NCBI GenBank assembly: GCA_017471185.1
Contig: JAFUVZ010000035.1
Span: 1 to 48,872 of the forward strand
DNA length: 48,872 nucleotides
Source of the DNA: Bacteroidaceae bacterium
Lineage (GTDB): Bacteria > Bacteroidota > Bacteroidia > Bacteroidales > Bacteroidaceae
Reading direction: 5' to 3'
The translations under genes and the position numbers were made by a program. Below the pieces are notes generated by a model. It saw only the letters and a program-made list of their open reading frames with translations. It did no database searches and was not told where the DNA came from. This document shows, one piece after another, positions 13,546 through 43,489 of the stretch. The first letter of the stretch is position 1. Every line of letters begins with the position of its first letter.

Positions 13546-14925
13546 ATGTACGCCATAGTAGATTGCAATAACTTCTATGCATCTTGCGAAAGGGTATTCA
13601 ACCCAGCATTGCATCATACACCCATCGTTATTCTGAGCAACAACGACGGATGCATCATCGCGCGAAGCAATGAAGCCAAAGCTTTGGGCATTGACATGGG
13701 AGGGCCGTTCTATCAGGTAAAGGATCTGCTGGAACAACATGGAGTAGCTGTATTCAGCAGCAACTACAACCTATACGGTGACATGAGCCGCAGGGTGATG
13801 CGTATGCTGTACGACTTCTGTCCTGACGGTTTCACGCAATACAGCATTGACGAAGGTTTCCTGAACCTGGAAGGCATGGGGTCACCTGAAGAGCTGCATC
13901 AGCGTTGCCTGAAACTGGCCAAAGACATCGGGAAAGGCACAGGCATACCTGTCACCGTTGGACTCGCCTCCACCAAGACATTGGCCAAGGTAGCGAGTAA
14001 GTTTGGTAAGAAACATAAAGGCTACCAGGGATGCTGCATGATAGACACAGAAGAAAAAAGACAGAAAGCGCTGAAGCTGTTCCCTGTTGGAGATGTCTGG
14101 GGCGTAGGGTGGCGCAACAAAGACAAGCTGGCCTATCATGGTGTCAAGACCGCATGGGACTTCACGCAGAAAAGCGAGGCGTGGGTCAGGAAAATGATGC
14201 ATGTCACAGGTGTGCGGACCTGGAAAGAGCTACAAGGCATAGATTGCGTCAACATTGAGGAACTGCCTCATAAAGAGAGCATCTGCACAAGCAGAAGTTT
14301 TCAAGGCGAAGGGTTGTCTGAACTGGAGGATGTAGAGGAAGCCATTGCCAATTTCGCAGCGTCTTGTGTCAGGAAGCTCAAGGAACAGCATACCTGTTGC
14401 TCGGCTATGACAGTGTTCGCCCACACCAGTCGTTTCCGCACAGACCTGCCTGCCAGCTATCTCTACCGCACCCTCTCCTTTCAAGTCCCGACCAACGATT
14501 TGCAGGAAATCGTATCAACAGCCGTCAAGGCTTTACGCAGAGAATGGAAAGCCGGCAAATACTATTATAAGAAAGGCGGAGTCATCGTATGGGATATCTG
14601 CCGGGATGATGCCATACAAACGGCACTGTTTGACCCCATAGACAGAAGCAAACAGGCGGCTCTTTCAAAAGCCATTGACGAGATCAACCGCAAGAACGGA
14701 CATAATATGGTACGCGTAGCCGTGCAGGGATACAGTAAGTCCTGGCACCTCAAGAGCGAATACTTGTCCAAGCAATACACCACCAATCTGCGTGATATCA
14801 TCCAGGTCAACGCCAGTTCATCAGTTCCTGCAGATAAGGAATCAGCTCCCCAGCCATCTTCTCCTGTTGACGGAGCGAAGGATGCCAGTCGGCTCCATAA
14901 CCCAGACTGCCATCCTGAGGGGTAA
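13546..14925 (+). CDS. umuC: UmuC-like Y-family DNA polymerase
   Basis: Catalytic subunit of a polymerase V-type translesion polymerase, 459 residues. The palm has D6 (IVDCNNFYASCE) and D102-E103 (YSIDEGF); the finger motif NNDGCIIARS and the fingerprint VTVGLASTKTLAKVASKFGK are present. The C-terminal DUF4113-like part is also there (MVRVAVQGYSKSWHLKSEYLS). It is about 37 residues longer than E. coli UmuC: the last residues, from about 420, are encoded by DNA that is antisense to the end of the convergent esterase gene, a 119-bp overlap (14807-14925). Forms an operon with umuD. Confidence 0.93.
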   Translation: MYAIVDCNNFYASCERVFNPALHHTPIVILSNNDGCIIARSNEAKALGIDMGGPFYQVKDLLEQHGVAVFSSNYNLYGDMSRRVMRMLYDFCPDGFTQYSIDEGFLNLEGMGSPEELHQRCLKLAKDIGKGTGIPVTVGLASTKTLAKVASKFGKKHKGYQGCCMIDTEEKRQKALKLFPVGDVWGVGWRNKDKLAYHGVKTAWDFTQKSEAWVRKMMHVTGVRTWKELQGIDCVNIEELPHKESICTSRSFQGEGLSELEDVEEAIANFAASCVRKLKEQHTCCSAMTVFAHTSRFRTDLPASYLYRTLSFQVPTNDLQEIVSTAVKALRREWKAGKYYYKKGGVIVWDICRDDAIQTALFDPIDRSKQAALSKAIDEINRKNGHNMVRVAVQGYSKSWHLKSEYLSKQYTTNLRDIIQVNASSSVPADKESAPQPSSPVDGAKDASRLHNPDCHPEG

Positions 14926-15910
14926 AGTCAAAACGATAAACCTTCCTGTCACCTTTCCTATTGGCCTGAGAAACCACCGCATCCAAAGCATCCTGCACAG
15001 CCTTGAGCCTCTCGCCGCTCAGCATACATCCGCTCAGCATCACAACCTTAGCGTCAGGGTAATTCGACCTCACATGATTCAGGAACGAAGCGTATGCTTC
15101 ACGCAGCTTCACCTTGTCAAACCTGCCTACTGAAACATCATTGGTACCTAAATTCACACACACCACATCTGGCGTATAACGGGCGAAGTCCCACAATTCA
15201 GTCGTATCAGCGAAGTTGGTATAATCATAAACCGCAGGCATCGCCTTTTCAGGCGTACCATCATAAGGGCCATTATAATTACGGAAGATGCCAATGCCAC
15301 TTCTGGCTACCACATGATACTGGGCGTCTAATGCACGAGCCGTCAAAGCGGCAAAGCTATGATAATGGTTTTCTGTCTCATAACTGAAGTGAGCATTCTC
15401 ATCAGAAGCCTCAACACCGTAGCCGCAAGTGATAGAATTGCCAATGAACTCTATCTTCCGTTCAGGCAAAGACGGTCTGTCTGTCAGGTCTTTCCCCGGG
15501 TCAAGTATAAAGCCATAAAACTCAGGCCTCAATTCATAACCTTCTATCGCATACGTCAGTCTGACCACATGCCTGCTGTCGGCTAATCCTTCAGCCAGCG
15601 TCAGTATAGAATCTGTCTTCGTATAGAAATCCACCATGAAAGGCTCTGCATCATCAACCTGTGCCATATAGAAACCCGACTGTGGCTTGGCAACCATTTT
15701 GACAGACGTGCCCTCAAAACCAGCAATCACCTGAACGCCAGGATATGTAAACAAAGGAGCATCTTCATGCTGCCAGTTCACACGACCCACATAAACAATC
15801 CGGCTGTCGGAAGCCTTGATGCGGGTTTCTTCCAAAGACTGCTGTCCGCCAGCCGAGCAACTGACAGCAATGAGCAGCCACAAGCACAATAACAAACTGT
15901 ATTTTTTCAT
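14807..15910 (-). CDS. SGNH/GDSL esterase, CE2-like acetyl-xylan esterase
   Basis: Predicted lipoprotein (lipobox LIAVSC, C18) that removes acetyl groups from plant polysaccharides. An N-terminal beta-sandwich (about 30-150) precedes the SGNH domain: GNSITCGYG with nucleophile S159, LGTND, and DWHPS with the Asp-His pair D341/H343. This two-domain plan is typical of carbohydrate esterase family 2. I chose ATG 15910 (367 residues) because the promoter -7 box lies at 15931-15938, so the in-frame ATG at 15931 would precede the transcript start. It fits the xylose genes of this window functionally but is not adjacent to them. Confidence 0.82.
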   Translation of the reverse strand: MKKYSLLLCLWLLIAVSCSAGGQQSLEETRIKASDSRIVYVGRVNWQHEDAPLFTYPGVQVIAGFEGTSVKMVAKPQSGFYMAQVDDAEPFMVDFYTKTDSILTLAEGLADSRHVVRLTYAIEGYELRPEFYGFILDPGKDLTDRPSLPERKIEFIGNSITCGYGVEASDENAHFSYETENHYHSFAALTARALDAQYHVVARSGIGIFRNYNGPYDGTPEKAMPAVYDYTNFADTTELWDFARYTPDVVCVNLGTNDVSVGRFDKVKLREAYASFLNHVRSNYPDAKVVMLSGCMLSGERLKAVQDALDAVVSQANRKGDRKVYRFDFTPQDGSLGYGADWHPSLRQQEKMAGELIPYLQELMNWR

Positions 15911-15930
15911 GACTTGACGTAATTTTAGCA

Positions 15931-15961
15931 CAAAGTTAAGCCAATTCTTTCAAATAACAGA
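15931..15961 (-). promoter_or_regulatory. Promoter of the CE2-like esterase
   Basis: TAACTTTG (15931-15938) with TCTG at 15958-15961 and a 19-bp spacer, minus strand. The predicted transcript start near 15926 rules out the longer start codon of the esterase. Confidence 0.6.
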
Positions 15962-22720: not shown

Positions 22721-24133
22721 ATGACTATGTTTCGTCACATTTTAGGATTATTCCTGGCAGGTTTTCTCATGGCAGGCTGTACATCTTCTACAGAACAGAA
22801 GAGTCCCGTTTTTGAACCCATCAAGACAGTTGTTCCTCCTCGTCCGGCAGGACAGCAGGATGTATTGCAGCTCACTGCTCCCAAGTTAGAGACCGTACGC
22901 GTAGGTTTCGTTGGGCTGGGTATGCGTGGCCCTGATGCTGTTGAGAGGTTTACCCACATTCCTGGCACCCAGGTTGTGGCTTTGTGCGATGTATTGCCTG
23001 AAAATGTGGAGAAATCACAGGAAATACTGCGCAAGGCAGGACTGCCGGAGGCTGCAGCCTACAGCGGAGACACCGAGGTTTTTAAACAGCTTTGTGAGCG
23101 TGATGATATCGACCTGGTTTATATCGCCACAGACTGGATACACCATGTACCGGTAGCTCTTTATGCGATGGAACATGGCAAACATGCAGCGATTGAGGTT
23201 CCTTCAGCTACTTCTTTGGAAGACATCTGGAAGCTGATTGACACTTCCGAACGAACCCGCAGGCACTGCATCCAGCTGGAGAACTGCTGCTATGATTTCT
23301 TCGAGCTTACCACACTGAACATGGCTCAGCAAGGCGTGTTCGGAGAGGTGCTGCACGTGGAGGGAGCTTACCTGCACAACCTGGACCCTTACTGGGAGGA
23401 ATACTGGAACAACTGGCGTATGGATTTCAACCGCACGCATCGCGGTGACGTTTACCCTACCCATGGCTTCGGCCCTATCTGCCAGGTGCTGAACATTCAC
23501 CGCGGTGACCAGCTGCAGACGCTTGTAGCAATGGATACCAAGGCTGTGAACGGGCCTGCCCACATCAAGAAGACCACAGGAGAGACTGTTACAGATTTCA
23601 AGAACGGAGACCAAACGACTACGATGATAAAGACGAAGAACGGGGCCACCATCCTTTTGGAGCACGGTGTAATGACGCCACGCCCTTATAGCCGCATGTA
23701 CCAGGTGGTGGGTACCGAGGGCTATGCCGGCAAATATCCCGTTCAGCAATATTGTGTATTGCCCGGAAAGGTTGACCGCAAGCTATTGCCAGAGAAGTTC
23801 GATGAGCGTTATGAGGTTGTGCTCAGTGGTGAAGACAAAGACCGCCTGGCAGAGGCATACCGTAGTCCGATTCTCACCCAAGACCTTGAGGAAACAGCCA
23901 AAGAGGTGGGCGGACATGGTGGCATGGACTTCATCATGGACTACCGCTTAGTATATTGCCTACGCAACGGTCTGCCTCTCGACATGGATGTGTATGATTT
24001 GGCGGAATGGTGCTGTGTAAGCGAGCTGTCAGCTATTTCCATGGACAACGGTTGTGTGCCTGTAGAGATACCTGATTTCACACGAGGAGGACAAGATAAG
24101 GTTAAGGGCTTTAAATACGCATTTGCACAATGA
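22721..24133 (+). CDS. GH109-like NAD-dependent glycosidase lipoprotein
   Basis: Gfo/Idh-type protein of 470 residues with a lipobox (GFLMAGC, C20), so exported. The Rossmann motif VGLGMRG lies near residue 65, and IATDWIHHVPVALYAMEHGKHAAIEVPSA and PTHGFGPICQVLNI match family GH109, whose characterised members are alpha-N-acetylgalactosaminidases that use bound NAD+. An export signal is normal for this family. ATG 22727 is a possible start two codons later. The stop overlaps the kinase start (ATGA, 24130-24133). Coupling to a hexosamine kinase supports an N-acetylgalactosamine substrate, but this is inferred. Confidence 0.85.
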   Translation: MTMFRHILGLFLAGFLMAGCTSSTEQKSPVFEPIKTVVPPRPAGQQDVLQLTAPKLETVRVGFVGLGMRGPDAVERFTHIPGTQVVALCDVLPENVEKSQEILRKAGLPEAAAYSGDTEVFKQLCERDDIDLVYIATDWIHHVPVALYAMEHGKHAAIEVPSATSLEDIWKLIDTSERTRRHCIQLENCCYDFFELTTLNMAQQGVFGEVLHVEGAYLHNLDPYWEEYWNNWRMDFNRTHRGDVYPTHGFGPICQVLNIHRGDQLQTLVAMDTKAVNGPAHIKKTTGETVTDFKNGDQTTTMIKTKNGATILLEHGVMTPRPYSRMYQVVGTEGYAGKYPVQQYCVLPGKVDRKLLPEKFDERYEVVLSGEDKDRLAEAYRSPILTQDLEETAKEVGGHGGMDFIMDYRLVYCLRNGLPLDMDVYDLAEWCCVSELSAISMDNGCVPVEIPDFTRGGQDKVKGFKYAFAQ

Positions 24134-25215
24134 AAGACTTACTTCATATCGTATCAGAGTTTTGTATCTCTCATAAAGTACGCAGTATCATACCATTGGG
24201 AAACGGTCTGATCAATGATACTTTCTTAGTGAACATCATTGAGCCGGATTCTCCCGACTATGTCCTTCAGCGGATAAACCATCATGTTTTTCAAGACGTT
24301 GAACTGCTGCAAGACAATATAGAGAAGGTAACTCACCACATCCGCCTGAAGCTGACGGAACAGGGAGCGAACGACATCGACTGCAAAGTACTGACACTCA
24401 TTCCTACTCGTGAGGGCAAGACATACTACTTTGACGGAGAGTCATACTGGCGCATAACTGTATTTATCCCCCGTACCCAGACGCTGGATGTCGTGAATGC
24501 ACAGACCGCGGAATCAGCGGGCGAGGCATTCGGGCGTTTTGAATCCATGTTGGCAGATATTCCCTATCCCTTGGGTGAGCCTATTCCTCATTTCCACGAC
24601 TTAGAGTTCCGCTTGAAACAGCTGGATGATGCGATGCGTGAGAACAAGGCAGGCAGACGGGAACAGGTAAAGGATCTCTGCCAATATGTTGTCGAGACGG
24701 GTCCCTCGCTTGCAGCCGCAAATGAATGGCTTCGCAATGGCTTGTTGCCTACCCGTATCTGTCATTGTGACCCTAAAGTAAACAACGTGCTTTTTGATGA
24801 AGACGGCAAGGTGCTTTGCGTCATCGACCTTGATACGGTGATGCCAAGCTACATCTTTTCAGACTACGGTGATTTCTTGCGTACAGCAGCCAATTTCACC
24901 TCCGAAGATGATCCTGACGAGACGAAGGTGGGCTTTAACATGGAGGTGTTCAAGGCATTTACCAAAGGGTACCTTCGCGAAGCAAAGGTCTTCCTCACCG
25001 ATTTTGAGATATCAAAGCTGCCATTCGGTGCATCATTGTTCCCGTTCATGCAGTCTGTGAGGTTCCTCACAGACTATCTCAACGGCGACACCTACTATAA
25101 GACAGCTTATGAGAGCCACAACCTGGTACGCACGAAGAACCAGCTGGCCTTATATGAAAGCGTGTGCAGACACAAACAAGAAATGGAAAGTTTTATCAAA
25201 GGACTGCTCAAATGA
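24130..25215 (+). CDS. N-acetylhexosamine kinase-like phosphotransferase (NahK-like)
   Basis: Cytoplasmic APH/choline-kinase-fold protein of 361 residues. The nucleotide loop GNGLINDTFLV is near residue 25; the catalytic HCDPKVNNVLFD has D214 and N219, and the metal-binding IDLDTVMP has D233/D235. The sequence resembles bifidobacterial-type N-acetylhexosamine 1-kinase, which phosphorylates GalNAc or GlcNAc at C1. It is coupled by ATGA overlaps to the GH109-like gene before it and the AraC gene after it, consistent with phosphorylating the sugar released outside. A generic aminoglycoside phosphotransferase is less likely in this setting. Confidence 0.8.
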   Translation: MKDLLHIVSEFCISHKVRSIIPLGNGLINDTFLVNIIEPDSPDYVLQRINHHVFQDVELLQDNIEKVTHHIRLKLTEQGANDIDCKVLTLIPTREGKTYYFDGESYWRITVFIPRTQTLDVVNAQTAESAGEAFGRFESMLADIPYPLGEPIPHFHDLEFRLKQLDDAMRENKAGRREQVKDLCQYVVETGPSLAAANEWLRNGLLPTRICHCDPKVNNVLFDEDGKVLCVIDLDTVMPSYIFSDYGDFLRTAANFTSEDDPDETKVGFNMEVFKAFTKGYLREAKVFLTDFEISKLPFGASLFPFMQSVRFLTDYLNGDTYYKTAYESHNLVRTKNQLALYESVCRHKQEMESFIKGLLK

Positions 25216-26093
25216 AAAAGATCAGCATAGAATACTTGAAGAATGAGGATTTCGTAGATTATATTGACGGTGACCTGTTTCTCATCGAGGATGTAAACAA
25301 GCTTCCATCCATCCAAGACAATGCGATTGAAGTGGAATCCATCGTTGTGATATTCGGAATAAGTGGCGAAGGACAGGTGACGATGAACAACCAAGTATAT
25401 CGACTCAAACGCAGGCAGTTGCTGATGGGTATGCCTCGTTCCATCTATTCCCATTACAGTCCGTTGACGTCAGATTTCAAGGTAAAGATTATCGGCATCT
25501 CTACCCGGTCGTTCAACAGTTCCATCTTCATGACGAAGAATATCTGGAAGAACTTCTACTTCCTTATCAACAATCCTATTATCGAAATCGAGGAAAATGA
25601 CGTGGCCCTGCTGATGCACTATTATGAGATAGCTAACCTCAAGATGCACCAAGAGAAATCGCCTTTTCACCAGGCCATTATGACATCTCTGCTCCACAGC
25701 GTGATTTTCGAGTTGCTGGCCATCACCGACCGGGTGGAAAAGATTGAGTTTGAAGAAAAGAACAGCATCACGCAGAGTGAAGTGCTGTTCCGCCGTTTTG
25801 TGGAACTGCTTGCAGAGAACGAAGGGAAGGTACGTTCCGTTACTGATTACGCTGAAATGCTGTACGTCACCCCCAAATATCTCTCTTCTGTAGTAAAACA
25901 GGTATGTGGAAGAACAGCACTCGACCTCATCCATGAGACCACAACTCATGCCATAGTACGCCAGTTGAAATATACCGACAAGTCAATCAAGGAGATTGCC
26001 AACGAGATGTCATTCCCCAGCCTCTCTTTCTTCGGCAAGTTCGTCAAGACACAGTTAGGTGTTTCTCCTAAGAAATTCCGCAAGGGACAATGA
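25212..26093 (+). CDS. AraC-family transcriptional regulator
   Basis: Regulator of 293 residues. The N-terminal half is a cupin-like sensing domain (IFGISGEGQVTMNNQVYRLKRRQLLMG), and the C-terminal part (about 195-290) has two helix-turn-helix units (VTDYAEMLYVTPKYLSSVVK and SIKEIANEMSFPSLSFFGKF). The end GVSPKKFRKGQ is typical of AraC. I start it at ATG 25212, which overlaps the kinase stop as ATGA; an upstream in-frame ATG at 25164 lies inside the kinase gene. It probably controls its own operon, sensing a released or phosphorylated sugar, but no operator was recognised. Confidence 0.9.
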   Translation: MKKISIEYLKNEDFVDYIDGDLFLIEDVNKLPSIQDNAIEVESIVVIFGISGEGQVTMNNQVYRLKRRQLLMGMPRSIYSHYSPLTSDFKVKIIGISTRSFNSSIFMTKNIWKNFYFLINNPIIEIEENDVALLMHYYEIANLKMHQEKSPFHQAIMTSLLHSVIFELLAITDRVEKIEFEEKNSITQSEVLFRRFVELLAENEGKVRSVTDYAEMLYVTPKYLSSVVKQVCGRTALDLIHETTTHAIVRQLKYTDKSIKEIANEMSFPSLSFFGKFVKTQLGVSPKKFRKGQ

Positions 26094-26841: not shown

Positions 26842-27987
26842 TTAATAAGCATGCTCGTCATGTGCCAGTTCCTCTGCATCAATAGGCTTGCTGTCAATCT
26901 TACGCCAAGCGTAGAAGATATAAGCCAGCACGAATGGCACTAACAGGGACACATAGAACATGGTGGTGAGGGTAAACTCACTGCTACTGCTGTTAGACAG
27001 CGTCAAAGAACTTTGCAGATCTGCCACACTGGGGTAATAAGCGGTATTGTTATAGCCAGCCAGGAGCAACAGGGCGGTAACGGTAAGCACCGTACCGGTG
27101 CCTGTCAGCCAGATACCTTTCCTGAAACTTGGCTTCACCAACGTCATGAAGATACCACAAAGCACCAGTACTACACCTGCCAGCAGCACAATGGTTACCA
27201 GTGGCAAAGCCATCACGTTGTGCAGATACTTGAAAGTCTCCATATATATTACGCCAGTCTCTGGCTTCACGGCAAAGCCATCCATAATCAGGAGATGTAC
27301 CAGCCAAGTGAGGAAGAAAGCCAGGAAGAAGATGGTGTCAAAACCCAAGCTCTTGCGGGCACGGCGGTGTAAGTCAATATCATCAATGTTGTTGATAAAG
27401 TAAAGTTCACCTAAGATACGAGCCAAGAACAGCACTGCCAGACCTAAAATCACGTTGAAGATATTCAGACAAGCGTCAAGACCGCCGGAAGCGTTACCCC
27501 AATAACTGATTACAGGTGCTACTGTATCTGTGATATTCCCCTTATCCACAAAGAAATTAGATCCTGTGAAGAATGTAGAGACAGCTGCACCTAAAAGTAT
27601 AGGAGCCAGCACACCATTCACTATCAGGCACCAGCGATAGGTATTCTTGCCAAGCAGATTGCCTAATTTCGACTGGAACTCATAACTGACAGCCTGCACC
27701 ACGAAAGTAAAGAGCAGCAACATCCATACCCAATAGGCACCGCCGAAGCTGGTACTATAGAACAGAGGGAAGGACGCAAAGAACGCGCCACCAAAAGTGA
27801 CGAGCGTAGTGAAAGTAAACTCCCACTTACGTCCCGTGGAATTAATCATCATCTGTCGCTGTGTCTCATTCTCCGGGAGATTGAGAAGCAGCGAGTTGCC
27901 TCCTTGCACGAAGAGCAGGAAGACGAGCAGTCCGCCGAGCAATGACACAACGAACCACCAATATTGTTGTAAAAATTCGTAACTCAT
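26842..27987 (-). CDS. cydB: Cytochrome bd ubiquinol oxidase subunit II
   Basis: Integral membrane subunit of 381 residues with about eight or nine spans, close in length to E. coli CydB (379). Recognisable parts are the N-terminal WWFVVSLLGGLLVFLLFVQGG, the polar FTFTTLVTFGGAFFASFPLFYSTSF, and FFLTWLVHLLI. Together with CydA it forms a high-affinity terminal oxidase for micro-oxic respiration or oxygen removal. It follows cydA on the same strand, after 75 bp of heptamer repeats. Confidence 0.93.
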   Translation of the reverse strand: MSYEFLQQYWWFVVSLLGGLLVFLLFVQGGNSLLLNLPENETQRQMMINSTGRKWEFTFTTLVTFGGAFFASFPLFYSTSFGGAYWVWMLLLFTFVVQAVSYEFQSKLGNLLGKNTYRWCLIVNGVLAPILLGAAVSTFFTGSNFFVDKGNITDTVAPVISYWGNASGGLDACLNIFNVILGLAVLFLARILGELYFINNIDDIDLHRRARKSLGFDTIFFLAFFLTWLVHLLIMDGFAVKPETGVIYMETFKYLHNVMALPLVTIVLLAGVVLVLCGIFMTLVKPSFRKGIWLTGTGTVLTVTALLLLAGYNNTAYYPSVADLQSSLTLSNSSSSEFTLTTMFYVSLLVPFVLAYIFYAWRKIDSKPIDAEELAHDEHAY

Positions 27988-28009: not shown

Positions 28010-28071
28010 CTCATTATTCATTCTCCATTATTCATTCTTCATTCTTCATTCTCCATTCTCCATTATTCATT
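28010..28071. repeat. Heptamer repeat tract between cydA and cydB
   Basis: Roughly eight copies of CATTATT, CATTCTT and CATTCTC in mixed order. The tract reaches into the end of cydA: the last codons and the stop of cydA are part of the repeat. Confidence 0.85.
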
Positions 28072-29616
28072 AACTAACGGTCCCTTCTTAATGGCTTTCA
28101 ACATAATGCCAATCTCAGCGATGAGCATAATGGTGAATAAGAAGAGGAAAATGAAGAATGTGAGCTGGACGCTACCAGTGGATACGTTAGAGATGGCCAC
28201 ATTGGTTGGCATCATATCCTGAATCACCCATGGTTGACGACCTACCTCAGCGACTGCCCAGCCAGCCTGGCCTGCCAGATAACCCAACGGTATGGTAAGG
28301 ATGGCAATCCAGTGCATCCACTTCATCTTTGTCAGATCTTTCTTATAAACCAAGTAGATAACCAGCATGAAGAAAACGATAAAATAGCCACCCAGCATCA
28401 CCATGATACGGAACATATAGAATGTAAGCGGCACATTGGGAACCACATCATTCACATTACGGATATGCCCATATCCGAAATACGGCATGTGCTCCCGCAT
28501 GATGCCGGCCTGCACTTTTGCCTCAGCGTCGTTTCCATCTGCCTGAGCCTTGCGATAAGCGGCAAAAGCTGCAATAGCCTTCTTGCCCCTCGTTATCTTT
28601 TCCTCTACAGACAAAGCTATCGTACCGTCCTTCAGTTCATAACCACCATTGAGTAAATCATTGATGCCAGGCACGAAAGAATTCATGTCACGGTCAGCGA
28701 GGATAGATAACATATAAGGGATCTTGATTTCAAAAAGATAAGGATCCACACCATCCTGCGGTGTTTTCTTGGCAGGATTCAGCAAGGCGATGGCGGTCAG
28801 TCCTGCCCCACTCTCACCCTGATAAAGGCCCTCCATAGCCGCCAGCTTCATAGGCTGGTGCTGTGCCACCTGATGACCAGACTCGTCACCGGTTACAGCC
28901 ACCATGACAGAAGAGAACAGGCCTACGATGGCTGCCACCTTGATACTCTGCAACGCGAACTTCTTTTCTCGTCCCTTGAGCAGATACCAGCAACTGACGC
29001 CCACTACAAAGATAGCTCCCAATACCCAGCCAGAGAGAACGGTATGGAAGAACTTGCTGACAGCAAACGGCGAGAATGCCACCTCTGCGAAACTAATCAT
29101 CTCATTGCGGGCTGTATCGGGATTGAACTCCATACCCACAGGATGCTGCATCCAAGAGTTAGCCACCAGAATCCACCAGGCAGAGATGGTAGCGCCCAGA
29201 CCGGTTAGCCAGGTAGATGCAAGGTGGAAACCCTTGCTCACCTTCTCCCAGCCAAAGAACATCACTGCCACGAAAGTACTCTCCATAAAGAAAGCCACAA
29301 TGCCCTCTATGGCAAGCGGAGCACCGAAGATGTCACCTACGAACCAACTGTAGTTACTCCAGTTCGTACCGAACTCGAATTCCAGGATCAAACCCGTAGC
29401 CACACCAACGGCAAAGTTGATGCCAAACAGTTTCATCCAGAACTTGGCGGTGTGTTGCCAGAACTCATCGCCAGAACGGTAGTAGAGGGTTTCCATAACG
29501 CCCATCACTACGGCAAGACCCAGCGTGAGCGGAACGAACACCCAGTGATAGATAGCCGTCAGCGCGAATTGCGCCCTCGACCAATCAATCAACGAAGAAT
29601 CAATGTTTTCAATCAT
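28063..29616 (-). CDS. cydA: Cytochrome bd ubiquinol oxidase subunit I
   Basis: Catalytic haem-bearing subunit of 517 residues. H24 (IYHWVFVPL) corresponds to the haem b595 ligand, the acidic pair is in LAIEGIVAFFMEST, and FGTNWSNYSWFVGDIFGAP and GRQPWVIQDMMPTNVA match the conserved fold. The quinol-binding Q loop is between about 255 and 375 and is of the short type. With CydB it reduces oxygen to water using menaquinol. Preceded on the same strand after 29 bp by the epimerase-hydrolase gene, which separates it from the DUF4492 gene. Confidence 0.95.
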   Translation of the reverse strand: MIENIDSSLIDWSRAQFALTAIYHWVFVPLTLGLAVVMGVMETLYYRSGDEFWQHTAKFWMKLFGINFAVGVATGLILEFEFGTNWSNYSWFVGDIFGAPLAIEGIVAFFMESTFVAVMFFGWEKVSKGFHLASTWLTGLGATISAWWILVANSWMQHPVGMEFNPDTARNEMISFAEVAFSPFAVSKFFHTVLSGWVLGAIFVVGVSCWYLLKGREKKFALQSIKVAAIVGLFSSVMVAVTGDESGHQVAQHQPMKLAAMEGLYQGESGAGLTAIALLNPAKKTPQDGVDPYLFEIKIPYMLSILADRDMNSFVPGINDLLNGGYELKDGTIALSVEEKITRGKKAIAAFAAYRKAQADGNDAEAKVQAGIMREHMPYFGYGHIRNVNDVVPNVPLTFYMFRIMVMLGGYFIVFFMLVIYLVYKKDLTKMKWMHWIAILTIPLGYLAGQAGWAVAEVGRQPWVIQDMMPTNVAISNVSTGSVQLTFFIFLFLFTIMLIAEIGIMLKAIKKGPLVNE

Positions 29617-29645
29617 AAGATTAGTTGTTTAAGGTTAATTCTATT

Positions 29646-32600
29646 TTATTTCACAATTACGGTCACAAAACTGTCAGCTGGCATATCCATCCATGCTTTA
29701 CCATCCTTCACTTTCAGGCATTGTGCATCACCATGCTGACGGTCATTAGTAACATAAACCCATGCCTGACCAGCTTCAGCAGGCAGACCCGTTATTTCCG
29801 CTTGGCAGGAAGCACCGTTATTCACAATCTGCAGGGCACATTCACCAGTAGCTTTCTTGCTGAACGCCGCCACATTCACCTGGTCTTTATCACAGGTCAC
29901 CGGCACGGCAAAGGAATCGGCGGGTGTCATAGCCAGCTGGCGCAAGTTGAAGAAACGTTGCGTAGGACGCAGAGGCCCATCAGAGCCATAGATACCATCT
30001 CCCCAAAGAATAGAATAGTCGGAAGTGAGCTGCCATTGCAGGATGCTCCACGGTTGGCTGATGGCACAGATGCGCACATACAGATTGATTTCATAAAGTG
30101 CGAAGGTCGTCTCATTAAAGATGGCAGGATACTGATGAGCCGCAGCGTCTGTGCTGCCCTCTCCCACTATCAGCGGCACGTTAATCTCCTTAGATGCAGC
30201 CGCCCACTTACGCAAGGTATCGTCATCACATCCTCTCCAGGAATGGAAAGAGACTGCGCCAATATAATTACGAGCTATCGGATCATGCAAGGCTGGCAGG
30301 ATAAAGTCGTAAGTGGTTGCATCAGAATTATCCCCCAACAGCATCAGCGTCTTTAGCCCTTTTCCTGCCAGAAATGCTCCGAACTCCTTGATAAAAGTAC
30401 AATGTTCCTCTGGTGTAAACACCACATCGATACCCAGGTCTGATTCATTAAATGAGAAGTAATCAGCCTCCACCCCATAATCTCTCTTTAAAAACTCCAG
30501 ATAGCTGGCCAACGATGTGTATATCCGTTCCTTTTCAGTGGTTTTAAGTGAATAAGCCCTGGCTGTACCGTCAGAACGGGTTGTCTGGTTTCCTGCCCAA
30601 GCTGGTGGAAACCAGCAACTCACGATGACAGGCATGCCAATTTGTTTAAGTTTCTTTGCCATCTCAGCACTACGACGGATATGCTCCCCCTCAGCACCCT
30701 GCTGGTCCCATTGCGCCCAAGGCATCTCAACACGACCGAAAGCCACTCTCATATTCTGCAGGCAATAATCAATCACCTCTGGATCTTTCTGTACATTCTG
30801 GATGCGGAAATTACCTCCAAAGCCGATGAACTGCCTGCCAGGTTGTTTTCTATCCATAACCAGGTGCACGGTTTCATGATGACGCACGCCATCTACATTC
30901 ATGACTGCCGACAAAGATGTCTGCGTCCCTTTCTTCAACGAAGGCATGAGGGTTACGTACAACACTTTGTCATCACCTTCATTTCTGACAACGGTGCGTA
31001 CTGACCTGCTGAACTGCAAGGTGATATGTCTTTCAGGAGCGGTAATGCTCACTTTATTTCCCGATGTCTTAATCTGTGCATCAGCGTAATATTTCGGTGA
31101 GAACGCCATACAGAAATACACCCCCTCTTTCAGTGATTCTAATGCATTAACCTTCCAAGAGAGGTTCACAGTTGACTGGTCCACATCGGTAACGGCCTGT
31201 GTAATCTCAGCCCCATGCATTGGCGTGATGGTAATCTGCTTGTTCTTCTCACGGTTGTATTTAATTTTCTGCTGCTTCTCCCTGCCGGTCACTTCCATAT
31301 TGTCCCCTATTACACCTATGCGTAAAGTAGATTCAAAGTCTATCAGTTCTCCAGCCAGGCGAACACCCGTGATATTGCTCCACGCCATGACCTCCGTATG
31401 TACCCTGACTGGTTCGAGACGTGCAATCAGTTCGTAAGCCATACGGCTGTTATGATAAGGGCAGTTCCACATACTCACCTTCGGTTCATCAGTAGGCTTT
31501 CCCTCTTCTGTCAGTCCCTTGTACCATCCTCCATGAACATTATCCACAAAATGTGTCTTCACATAATCCCAGTTGCGTCTGGCGATGCGCAGGTATTTCG
31601 CATCTCCAGTTATCTGCCAGGCGTTCACACAGCCTATTATGGTTTCGCACTGTGGCCACCACGACAAGTTCTTACGATACCCCTTTTCATTACGTTCATA
31701 CAGCATCACCCCATCAGGATGAAGGCCTTCTGCTATTGCCACATCCACCATCCTTACAGCCTGTGCATCCACCTTTTTCTTCAAGGCTTCCTCTCCAACT
31801 GCAGCGGCAGCCTCACTCATAAGCCAGGAGGTTTCAATGTCATGTCCGAAAGAATCCACTTCCTCCAATGAATGCCAGTCGTCATCTGCATATAATATAA
31901 GGTGTCCCCTCTGGGCATCATAAAGTCTGCTGCCCAAGATGCCCAACAGTTCCTTCAGGTTCTCCTTAAGTCCTTCTTCAGGCCATACCTGATACAAGGT
32001 GGTATATGCTTCCAGCAGATGAATGTGCGTGTTCATCGTCTTCGTAGCTCCCGCCATCCCGTCAACGCCCTTGGCTTGGGTACGGGTATAGTCACGTTCA
32101 AAAGTTTCGATATAACCTTGTTTCTGTTTATCATGTACCTTTGTCTCCAAAGTGCGGTATAGAGCCAAGGCCGTTTCCAAGCTTTTCTGCTGCCCCGTCA
32201 CCCTGAAGTGCTCAGCTAAGCCATAAATTGTAAAAGCAGTGGCATAAGTCTGCTTCGTTCCATCTTTCATTCCTCCCTCATTATCCAGTAGCCAAAATAC
32301 GCCTCCATACTTAGCATCGATGAAATGGTTGATGACATAATCAGCAGCCCTGTCCGCAGCAAGGCGATAGCTCTCATAACCATAAAGCCCGTATGCCTTC
32401 GAGAAAGTCCATAAGATGCGTGCATTCAGGATAGATCCTTTGTCGGCATCAGCTACTGCTGAACCATCGTTGCGCACTGTCCCGTAGAATCCGCCAGCCA
32501 GATCGATGGTATGTTCTATCCAGAATGGCAAAATGTTTCCGGTAAGATTAGCTTCCACTTCTGCCTTCAGCAGAGAGATGTCAACAGACACCTGAGCCTT

Positions 32601-32651
32601 TGTGAATGTAAAGGCAGACAGCATGATTAATATAAACAACCGTATCTTCAT
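29646..32651 (-). CDS. Secreted AGE/cellobiose-2-epimerase - GH30-like fusion
   Basis: Protein of 1001 residues with a signal peptide (MKIRLFILIMLSAFTFTKA). Residues about 22-415 form an AGE-family (alpha6/alpha6) epimerase with the complete catalytic set known from cellobiose 2-epimerase: H270, E273 and W276 (GHDIETSW), W332 and E336 (WWPQCE), and H400 (CPYHNS). About 420-605 is a beta-sandwich linker. About 605-905 is a clan GH-A barrel with E736 (YFSFNESD) and E831 (VGEGSTD) as likely acid/base and nucleophile. About 905-1001 is a beta domain as in GH30. It lies between DUF4492 (18-bp gap) and cydA (29-bp gap). The hydrolase could release a disaccharide that the epimerase converts; this is an inference. 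Confidence 0.83.
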   Translation of the reverse strand: MKIRLFILIMLSAFTFTKAQVSVDISLLKAEVEANLTGNILPFWIEHTIDLAGGFYGTVRNDGSAVADADKGSILNARILWTFSKAYGLYGYESYRLAADRAADYVINHFIDAKYGGVFWLLDNEGGMKDGTKQTYATAFTIYGLAEHFRVTGQQKSLETALALYRTLETKVHDKQKQGYIETFERDYTRTQAKGVDGMAGATKTMNTHIHLLEAYTTLYQVWPEEGLKENLKELLGILGSRLYDAQRGHLILYADDDWHSLEEVDSFGHDIETSWLMSEAAAAVGEEALKKKVDAQAVRMVDVAIAEGLHPDGVMLYERNEKGYRKNLSWWPQCETIIGCVNAWQITGDAKYLRIARRNWDYVKTHFVDNVHGGWYKGLTEEGKPTDEPKVSMWNCPYHNSRMAYELIARLEPVRVHTEVMAWSNITGVRLAGELIDFESTLRIGVIGDNMEVTGREKQQKIKYNREKNKQITITPMHGAEITQAVTDVDQSTVNLSWKVNALESLKEGVYFCMAFSPKYYADAQIKTSGNKVSITAPERHITLQFSRSVRTVVRNEGDDKVLYVTLMPSLKKGTQTSLSAVMNVDGVRHHETVHLVMDRKQPGRQFIGFGGNFRIQNVQKDPEVIDYCLQNMRVAFGRVEMPWAQWDQQGAEGEHIRRSAEMAKKLKQIGMPVIVSCWFPPAWAGNQTTRSDGTARAYSLKTTEKERIYTSLASYLEFLKRDYGVEADYFSFNESDLGIDVVFTPEEHCTFIKEFGAFLAGKGLKTLMLLGDNSDATTYDFILPALHDPIARNYIGAVSFHSWRGCDDDTLRKWAAASKEINVPLIVGEGSTDAAAHQYPAIFNETTFALYEINLYVRICAISQPWSILQWQLTSDYSILWGDGIYGSDGPLRPTQRFFNLRQLAMTPADSFAVPVTCDKDQVNVAAFSKKATGECALQIVNNGASCQAEITGLPAEAGQAWVYVTNDRQHGDAQCLKVKDGKAWMDMPADSFVTVIVK

Positions 32652-32669
32652 AACGACTAATTGTTTTGG

Positions 32670-32909
32670 TTATTCTGAATGTTCATCAACAGACCTTCCT
32701 ATAATCTGCGAGCTCACATAGTCATCCTTCTGCGAGTCATCATCTGTCACGGAATTCAGGAAATTGGGGAAGAAAAACACCCGCAGGATGCAGAACATGA
32801 TGAAGAGCTTGATGAAAATCAACAGCCAAAGCGTCTTGCCGATGGTCATGCTCTTAAAACCATCCACATAGAACCGCCATATTTTAGTGACGATGTTTTT
32901 CATACGCAT
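32670..32909 (-). CDS. DUF4492 small membrane protein
   Basis: Protein of 79 residues with a basic amphipathic start (RIWRFY-type: KIWRFYVDGFKSMTIGKTLWL), one membrane span (LIFIKLFIMFCILRVFFFPNFL) and a short acidic, serine-rich tail. This matches DUF4492, which in Bacteroidetes regularly precedes cydA and cydB and may be a small oxidase subunit. ATG 32903 is a plausible start two codons in. Here a 3-kb gene intervenes between it and cydA. Confidence 0.85.
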   Translation of the reverse strand: MRMKNIVTKIWRFYVDGFKSMTIGKTLWLLIFIKLFIMFCILRVFFFPNFLNSVTDDDSQKDDYVSSQIIGRSVDEHSE

Positions 32910-42323: not shown

Positions 42324-42331
42324 TATATTTG
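42324..42331 (+). promoter_or_regulatory. -7 element of the GH5 gene
   Basis: TATATTTG, a perfect TAnnTTTG match 28 bp before the ATG at 42359; no clear -33 TTTG. Confidence 0.55.
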
Positions 42332-42358
42332 CATCAGTATAATATAGAATTGAAAGCA

Positions 42359-43489
42359 ATGAAAAAGATTTTTACTTTACTGGTATTTGTCGTCATAGCA
42401 GTGCTTTCCCTGGGTTCTTGTGGAGGTCAACAGGGAAGCGGAGTGAATAACTTCAGCATCAAGCGAGGCACCAACTTGAGCCACTGGCTGTCGCAATCAA
42501 GGGTGACGGGTGAGGAACGCAGGAAGCACATCCAGGAAGACGACTTTGCCCGTCTGGAGCAACTGGGCTTCGACTTTGTCCGCATCCCCATTGACGAGGT
42601 ACAGTTCTGGGATGAGTATGGCAACAGGTTGCCTGAGGCTTGGGAATTGCTGACCAATGCCATCAACCTGGCTGAGAAGCATCATCTGCGTGTGGTGGTT
42701 GATTTGCACATCATCCGCTCTCATGCCTTCATTGACAACAACAATAACAACACCTTGTTTACCTCTGAGGAGTCACAGCAGAAACTTATTGATATGTGGT
42801 ATCAATTGTCTGATGTGCTGAAGGGCTATAGCAACGACTCTGTGGCATACGAGTTTATGAATGAACCTATTGCCCCAGAACACGAACAATGGAACGTGGT
42901 GGTGGAGAAGGTGCACAAGGCTTTGCGAGCTATTGAGCCACAACGTACTTTGGTGATTGGCTCTAACCGTTGGCAGGACTATGAAACCATCAAGTACCTG
43001 CGTGTGCCGGAGGGCGACAAGAACATCATCCTTTCCTTCCACTATTACCATCCTATGCTTATCACCCATCGAGGCGCTTTCTGGACTCCCCTCGGTAGAT
43101 TTAAAGGTGACATCAACTATCCAGGCGTGCTTATCACCCAGGAGGACTATGATGCTGCTCCTGAGGAGATTAAGGAAGAGCTGAAGCCTTTCCTCACCCA
43201 GGTTTGGAACAAGGACAAGATTCGTGCGGACTTCAAGGATGCCATCGAAGCTGCCAAGAAGTATGGCCTTCAGTTGTTCTGTGGCGAGTGGGGTGTGTAT
43301 GAACCTGTTGAGCGTGACTTGGCTTATAAGTGGTATAAGGATATGATTGAGGTGTTCGATGAGTTCGACATTGCTTGGACAACCTGGTGCTATGATGGCG
43401 ACTTCGGCTTCTATGACCAGCGCACGGAATCCTACAAAGACAAGCCTCTGGTGGATATCCTGATGTCTGGCAAAGGACTGGGCGAGTAA
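42359..43489 (+). CDS. GH5-family glycoside hydrolase lipoprotein
   Basis: Predicted lipoprotein of 376 residues (lipobox LGSC, C21) with a single GH5-type TIM barrel. It has RGTNLSHW and FVRIPI near the N-terminus, the acid/base E169 in YEFMNEP, HYYHP near 228-232 and the nucleophile E310 in FCGEWGVY. Members hydrolyse beta-1,4-glucans or mannans at the cell surface or in the periplasm. Starting at ATG 42359 gives an optimal signal; an upstream ATG at 42329 lies over the promoter -7 box. It forms a single-gene unit with promoter and terminator. Confidence 0.88.
   Translation: MKKIFTLLVFVVIAVLSLGSCGGQQGSGVNNFSIKRGTNLSHWLSQSRVTGEERRKHIQEDDFARLEQLGFDFVRIPIDEVQFWDEYGNRLPEAWELLTNAINLAEKHHLRVVVDLHIIRSHAFIDNNNNNTLFTSEESQQKLIDMWYQLSDVLKGYSNDSVAYEFMNEPIAPEHEQWNVVVEKVHKALRAIEPQRTLVIGSNRWQDYETIKYLRVPEGDKNIILSFHYYHPMLITHRGAFWTPLGRFKGDINYPGVLITQEDYDAAPEEIKEELKPFLTQVWNKDKIRADFKDAIEAAKKYGLQLFCGEWGVYEPVERDLAYKWYKDMIEVFDEFDIAWTTWCYDGDFGFYDQRTESYKDKPLVDILMSGKGLGE

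Follow-up and report, generated by a model that had tools for sequence, protein, structure and literature searches.

The 48,872-nucleotide stretch analysed here (the window; Bacteroidaceae bacterium, assembly GCA_017471185.1, contig JAFUVZ010000035.1) carries on its minus strand, at 29646..32651, a single unbroken open reading frame of 1001 amino acid residues in which a cellobiose 2-epimerase (CE) is fused to a hydrolase resembling glycoside hydrolase family 30 (GH30). Both halves retain conserved catalytic residues, the fusion recurs in other Bacteroidales, and part of its family lies in a mannan-locus context. On balance we favor the view that the gene encodes an exported, single-chain bifunctional enzyme of β-mannan/glucomannan breakdown; its export and compartment are inferred from the N-terminus, and the two activities, their substrate and the coupling of the steps are likewise inferences.

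The epimerase half

The CE domain, a member of the AGE superfamily, spans residues 26–413 (31413..32576, minus strand). Pfam family PF07221 matches residues 54–390 at 153.1 bits, against a curated cut-off of 23.4 (E = 1.5e-44). The NCBIfam model for EpiA (NF041848) matches residues 19–413 at 303.4 bits, which is below its equivalog cut-off of 800; three other fusions (282.6, 328.1 and 324.5 bits) do not reach it either. Using phmmer, residues 26–418 match solved CEs (best E = 6.1e-93), the top chain being the enzyme of Rhodothermus marinus (RmCE), and Foldseek superposes this half on the RmCE structure with a root-mean-square deviation of 1.4 Å and 39% identity.

An initial annotation, made from the DNA sequence alone, had recognized here a full AGE/CE domain with six catalytic-site residues, all of which align with identical residues of RmCE: H270 (H259), E273 (E262), W276 (W265), W332 (W322), E336 (E326) and H400 (H390). 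R78 (R66), H211 (H200) and W395 (W385) bring the identical active-site positions to nine, and the tenth position compared differs (A325 in RmCE, C335 in the window protein). Among the RmCE residues, we take R66, H200, H259, E262, W322, W385 and H390, all identical in the window protein, to have catalytic roles. The nine positions are invariant in the 29 aligned fusions, made up of the window protein and 28 of the 30 loci described below as fused; L039, whose frame is broken, and L049, which is truncated, were left out of the alignment, and an additional C-terminal domain of L042 was cut off beforehand. The predicted activity of this half is the C2 epimerization of β-1,4 disaccharides.

The hydrolase half

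A β-rich domain (residues 417–593; 30873..31403, minus strand), which also starts the unfused GH30-like proteins, opens the second half; no match to its fold was obtained, because matches to the barrel or to the CE took up the results of the fold searches. It is followed by a GH30-like (β/α)8 barrel with side β-structure (residues 594–1001; 29649..30872, minus strand). No Pfam model matches the second half above any curated cut-off. Its predicted structure (pLDDT 92, pTM 0.90) nevertheless has both elements of the GH30 fold, the (β/α)8 barrel and the side β-structure, so that the clan GH-A domain proposed in the initial annotation, for which a structure prediction had been suggested as a check, reappears in the model. 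The best structural matches are GH30 xylanases (GH30_8/GH30_10), with 10–17% identity among the matches listed.

The two glutamates singled out by that annotation lie where a GH30-type enzyme would have them. E736 (30444..30446, minus strand; E320 of the half) follows the strand E315–317, counted as strand 4, and is the presumed acid/base; E831 (30159..30161, minus strand; E415 of the half) follows the strand E411–414, counted as strand 7, and is the presumed nucleophile. The NE motif at E320 aligns with the NEP of GH30, and the E415 region falls outside those alignments. Both glutamates are invariant in the 29 fusions and in all 50 aligned hydrolase halves (the window and 49 of 80 loci). The predicted activity is that of a retaining β-glycosidase.

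With PF02055 (GH30; gathering cut-off 23 bits) the window copy gives no match at E ≤ 0.1, a threshold passed by 19 of the 50 aligned members; of the other fusions, G075 scores above the cut-off (25.3 bits), and G527 (20.7 bits) and G001 (19.4 bits) below it. Because the window copy does not reach this cut-off, we call the half GH30-like and do not file it as GH30. An assignment of the window copy to GH59 (PF02057) was rejected (16.6 bits, E = 0.0051, cut-off 27). The NCBIfam XynC model matches two relatives weakly (L064, 21.9 bits; L079, 24.3 bits; cut-off 650).

Export signal and the join

The signal peptide claimed in the initial annotation can be read directly at the N-terminus as MKIRLFILIMLSAFTFTKAQ (32592..32651, minus strand), with no lipobox by eye. 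Of the 29 fused homologues whose N-terminus is complete, 28 pass a crude N-terminal rule (26 signal-like, two flagged lipoprotein-like). The same rule finds a signal-like start in 14 of 15 unfused CEs of hydrolase loci, at least one of which is doubtful (L032), and it misses some evident signals (L112). L019, a CE of 399 residues placed inside the main fused clade, has no signal-like start by eye. Judging from its N-terminus, the window protein is probably exported, the periplasm being the likeliest compartment.

The join between the halves lacks the signal of the hydrolase: many unfused hydrolases read as a signal followed by AQTEVMAWSN, and the fused CE part runs into VHTEVMAWSN. It is also short, a few residues separating the end of the CE from the start of the mature hydrolase.

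Recurrence of the fusion

A search for other proteins with both domains, which the initial annotation had proposed, was productive. Besides the window's own, 399 genomes of the family contain five more full-length fusions at 60–65% identity. One further full-length fusion (L187) comes from another family of the order, where four of 295 genomes, its own included, matched at E ≤ 1e-150. Relatives of the hydrolase half were recruited by scanning two of its short peptide patterns over 84,980 species genomes, which yielded 240, and the best 80 were kept; given this recruitment, the shares of fused and unfused genes are not a census. Thirty of these best 80 are fused, counting L039 and L049; in L062 and L069 the contig starts within the hydrolase half, and the fused state cannot be judged. 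According to the record titles, fusions recur across rumen and gut Bacteroidales, and uninterrupted ones occur in records titled Prevotella aff. ruminicola Tc2-24 and Parabacteroides sp. PH5-46.

Fifteen of the 80 loci have a separate CE gene elsewhere in the stretch, always on the same strand; in ten it lies within 163 nt of the hydrolase gene, and in nine of these ten the CE comes first. Plasmid records matching the fusion protein number 66, none covering 80% of the query; two Hymenobacter plasmids among the 20 listed hold an unfused hydrolase half. A single-sequence search of viral contigs found no relative of the hydrolase half. Five long open frames (G005, G115, G129, G083 and G232) were rejected as further CE fusions, their CEs having 390–429 residues from the first Met; the frames are long because they continue upstream of the start.

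Several relatives depart from the common architecture. The fusion frame of L039:8744-10804, from a record with the title Prevotella sp. ne3005, is broken within the hydrolase half, and L042:4081-8100 encodes a 1340-residue fusion whose extra C-terminal domain matches the Pfam Beta-lactamase family. L108:9929-12592 and L110:6061-8724 are unfused GH30-like proteins of 888 residues, the C-terminal part of the former matching WD40-like PD40 repeats.

Origin of the fusion

A hydrolase tree of 82 rows, built by a quick method and without L039 because of its broken frame, has fusions in a main clade, in L079 (Parabacteroides PH5-46) and in L072 (a Mediterranea genome). L079 is joined with support 100 by L094 and L097, in which the two genes are neighbors, whereas the group of L072 contains five further rows, L063, L066, L067, L070 and L076 (support 85). 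The main clade of the CE tree consists of 28 fused rows and L019 (support 99); L079 again joins L094 and L097 (support 100), and L072 joins L063 and L070 (support 96). The simplest reading of these trees is that neighboring genes fused on three separate occasions, with some later losses within the main clade. Alternatively, there may have been one fusion followed by several splits, since change counts do not tell gain from loss; the eight changes counted on the hydrolase tree are an overcount, because L062 and L069 were scored as unfused although their contigs start inside the hydrolase half.

The CEs of the fusions sit in a 49-row clade (support 97) that is distinct from the seven CEs of cytoplasmic type in the tree, which have about 400 residues. 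Members of this Bacteroidales clade are mostly signal-like at the N-terminus and include unfused CEs beside unfused GH30-like genes. The premise of the initial annotation that CEs are normally single-domain cytoplasmic enzymes fits EpiA, described as cytoplasmic in S. copri (PMC12704710), but has to be qualified for this clade.

Gene neighborhoods of the relatives

Gene context was compared in 82 stretches (the best 80 relatives and the two Hymenobacter plasmids), many of which end at contig ends. Neighbors were named by scanning one or two members of each cluster against Pfam, with the Hymenobacter annotation as a further source for SusD and GH9; hybrid two-component systems were recognized by eye. 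The recurrent neighbors are GH26 (21 stretches), GH9-type (20), SusD (18), SusC (16), CE1-type esterase (16), hybrid two-component systems (15), GH27 (13) and GH2 (12); GH130 occurs once, accompanying the hydrolase half in H. volaticus. The scanned member of the GH9-type cluster matched the CelD_N domain only. In the fused stretches alone, GH26 is present in 7 of 29 and GH9-type in 10 of 29. As a yardstick, 24 hand-chosen genomes, 22 of them fusion-bearing, contain 55 GH26 matches, or about 2.3 per genome of roughly 3 Mb; a random 20-kb stretch would therefore, as a rough estimate, hold GH26 in about 1.5% of cases. GH130 and GH26 are each found in 20 of the 22 fusion-bearing genomes, and both of the other genomes have both. 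Three genomes (G075, G001 and G031) possess a second, separate CE next to GH130 and GH26, a documented gene set to which the fusion is additional.

Two further neighbors deserve mention. One recurs in 12 loci (L084:8218-9930 and relatives; median 627 residues), in five of them between the CE and the GH30-like gene; its scanned member (571 residues) matches nothing in Pfam at E ≤ 0.001 or in NCBIfam at E ≤ 0.01. The other, L103:6573-8795, belongs to a cluster present in seven loci, lies in a GH26/GH27 operon and matches GH59, the galactocerebrosidase family, strongly.

Proposed function and alternatives

In the scheme that we favor, surface enzymes (GH26, GH9, GH5) would release β-1,4-linked (gluco)manno-oligosaccharides, which the GH30-like half would hydrolyze outside the cytoplasm, most likely in the periplasm. 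The CE half would interconvert mannose and glucose at C2 of the reducing-end sugar. The two steps would act in series, in either order, on the same oligosaccharides, and mixed Man/Glc disaccharides would be converted into a form that the cell can either hydrolyze or take up and hand on to a cytoplasmic GH130. A hydrolase that consumes, rather than makes, the epimerized disaccharide would explain why the fusion is kept beside a separate CE.

Several observations weigh against this scheme. GH26 is missing from 61 of the 82 stretches, many of the 82 being cut by contig ends, and 36 of 82 have no CE, including L062 and L069, which start inside the hydrolase half. The separate CE of G075, G001 and G031 implies that in these genomes the known pathway does not depend on an exported CE. 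Two of the ten directly neighboring CEs (L100 and L104) do not belong to the clade of the fusions' CEs, and the one from L100 is very distant; a third, from L080, was left out of the tree because it is too short. We know of no GH30 enzymes that act on mannan, and the nearest structures to the hydrolase half are xylanases. Finally, the window copy sits in a cyd operon, outside any polysaccharide locus, and GH26, GH130 and a second CE were not found in the assembled genome of the window, which is 80% complete.

Two more specific proposals are put forward tentatively. In the first, the protein would be a periplasmic, epimerization-driven hydrolase: the CE would rewrite the reducing end, and a GH30-like module of a new, mannan-directed group in the same chain would hydrolyze the Glc/Man disaccharides of glucomannan. 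Bacteria would then have a second route, outside the cytoplasm, in addition to the cytoplasmic EpiA–GH130 one, and it would have arisen about three times through fusion of neighboring genes. The second, a narrower form of the favored scheme that we rate as about equally speculative, has the epimerase act first and the GH30-like half serve as an exo-β-glycosidase on disaccharides, with the CE supplying the sugar accepted at the +1 site. Glc-Man, for example, would become cellobiose and then two glucoses, which would drain an equilibrium-bound mixture outside the cytoplasm; the closest folds, however, are those of endo-xylanases.

Somewhat less probable is that both halves are active and uncoupled, the fusion merely fixing their stoichiometry and sharing one export signal within one locus. 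The short join, the lost second signal peptide and the stretches in which the hydrolase has no CE fit such an arrangement. Three separate fused lineages, on the other hand, suggest a benefit of proximity, although operon adjacency alone makes fusions likely. We think it improbable that the GH30-like half acts on another, xylan-like polymer and that the mannan-locus neighbors reflect mixed hemicellulose loci. The GH30 xylanases among the best structural matches and the weak XynC matches would favor this, but GH26, GH27, GH9-type and CE neighbors recur, GH130 is present in H. volaticus, and characterized CEs, such as EpiA of S. copri, act on gluco/manno disaccharides. An artefact of assembly or binning might be suspected in a contig from an 80%-complete metagenome-assembled genome of 85 contigs with the gene in an unusual place, and the initial annotation had named an assembly error that joins two genes as fatal to its claim. 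For the fusion itself it is rejected with near certainty, because the fusion recurs in the 399 family genomes and in 30 of the 80 relatives, including the Tc2-24 and PH5-46 records; the insertion into the cyd operon comes from the window assembly alone.

The window copy within the cyd operon

In the window, the fusion gene begins 18 bases past the stop codon of its upstream neighbor, the DUF4492 gene of the cytochrome bd operon (32670..32903, minus strand), and cydA (28063..29616, minus strand) starts 29 bases past the fusion stop codon; cydB lies at 26842..27987 on the same strand. DUF4492 and cydA (28063-32903, minus strand) are thus separated by 3,056 bases with the fusion between them. Twenty-four cydA loci besides the window were examined, and in all 21 in which both genes were located these are adjacent (approximate gaps −14 to 61); two of these 21 are genomes of the same genus, whose CydA is 89–90% identical and which have no insert. 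In the hydrolase tree and the CE tree alike, the rows nearest to the window copy are fusions, which come from records of Prevotella and of uncultured Bacteroidales, whereas the other copies in the genus, present in 11 of 157 further genomes, show 44–67% identity to the hydrolase half in matched pieces. These data suggest that the fusion gene was gained horizontally into the cyd operon; its base composition gives no sign for or against this.

The genome of the window has GH5, GH9, another GH30 and 12 SusD matches. Within the window are a GH5 protein (42329-43489, plus strand), which to the eye starts like a lipoprotein and whose nearest solved relative is endoglucanase CelC, and a CE2-type acetyl esterase (14807-15931, minus strand), nearest to chain 2wao, named endoglucanase E; each gene is more than 9 kb from the fusion. 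Near cydB (22721-26093, plus strand) lie a Gfo/Idh-type oxidoreductase, an APH-type kinase (PF01636) and an AraC-type regulator, the first and last named by eye.

Comparison with known systems

No fusion of a CE to a hydrolase was found described in the open-access literature, a weak absence given that subscription papers and preprints lay largely outside the search. As far as these searches show, neither the combination of the two domains nor its recurrence nor its probable compartment has been described there. The arrangement may be new, as the initial annotation supposed, but it is no one-off, recurring as it does in rumen and gut Bacteroidales. Taken singly, the halves lie within or next to known families: the first is a CE, and the second is part of a divergent GH30-like group.

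With the known CEs (RmCE, other solved CEs and EpiA of S. copri, all of the AGE superfamily) the window protein shares the domain fold and active-site residues, at 39% identity to RmCE; unlike them it starts with an export signal, carries a fused hydrolase and belongs to a clade apart from the seven cytoplasmic-type CEs. Like GH30 enzymes (the GH30_8/GH30_10 xylanases and the glucosylceramidase type), the hydrolase half has a barrel with side β-structure, an NE after strand 4 and a Glu after strand 7. It differs from them in its low structural identity (10–17%), in the lack of a Pfam GH30 match in the window copy, in the extra N-terminal β-rich domain and in the mannan-locus context of its relatives. 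If the proposal is correct, an uncharacterized hydrolase group of mannan loci would join the gut and rumen toolbox, and a single-chain epimerase–hydrolase could serve in making or clearing Man-Glc sugars.

The GH26|GH5_4 enzyme of S. copri (PMC12704710) is likewise a bimodular exported mannan enzyme, but it joins two hydrolases and has no epimerase. EpiA of this organism interconverts mannobiose, Man-Glc and Glc-Man, is predicted to be cytoplasmic and occurs with GH130; in the model presented there, mannan disaccharides are epimerized in the cytoplasm and then phosphorolyzed by GH130 (PMC12704710). In X. ruminicola KHP1, glucomannan and galactomannan induce a PUL that is still uncharacterized (PMC11107044). 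The GH26/epimerase/GH130 mannobiose pathway, described for S. copri PUL 7 (PMC12704710) and for a Muricauda mannan PUL (PMC9860051), resembles the system proposed here in the kinds of genes and the disaccharides expected. Its epimerase is a separate protein, predicted to be cytoplasmic in S. copri, whereas that of the fusion is probably exported and is joined to a GH30-like enzyme; relative to the S. copri model, the epimerization step would have moved outside the cytoplasm.
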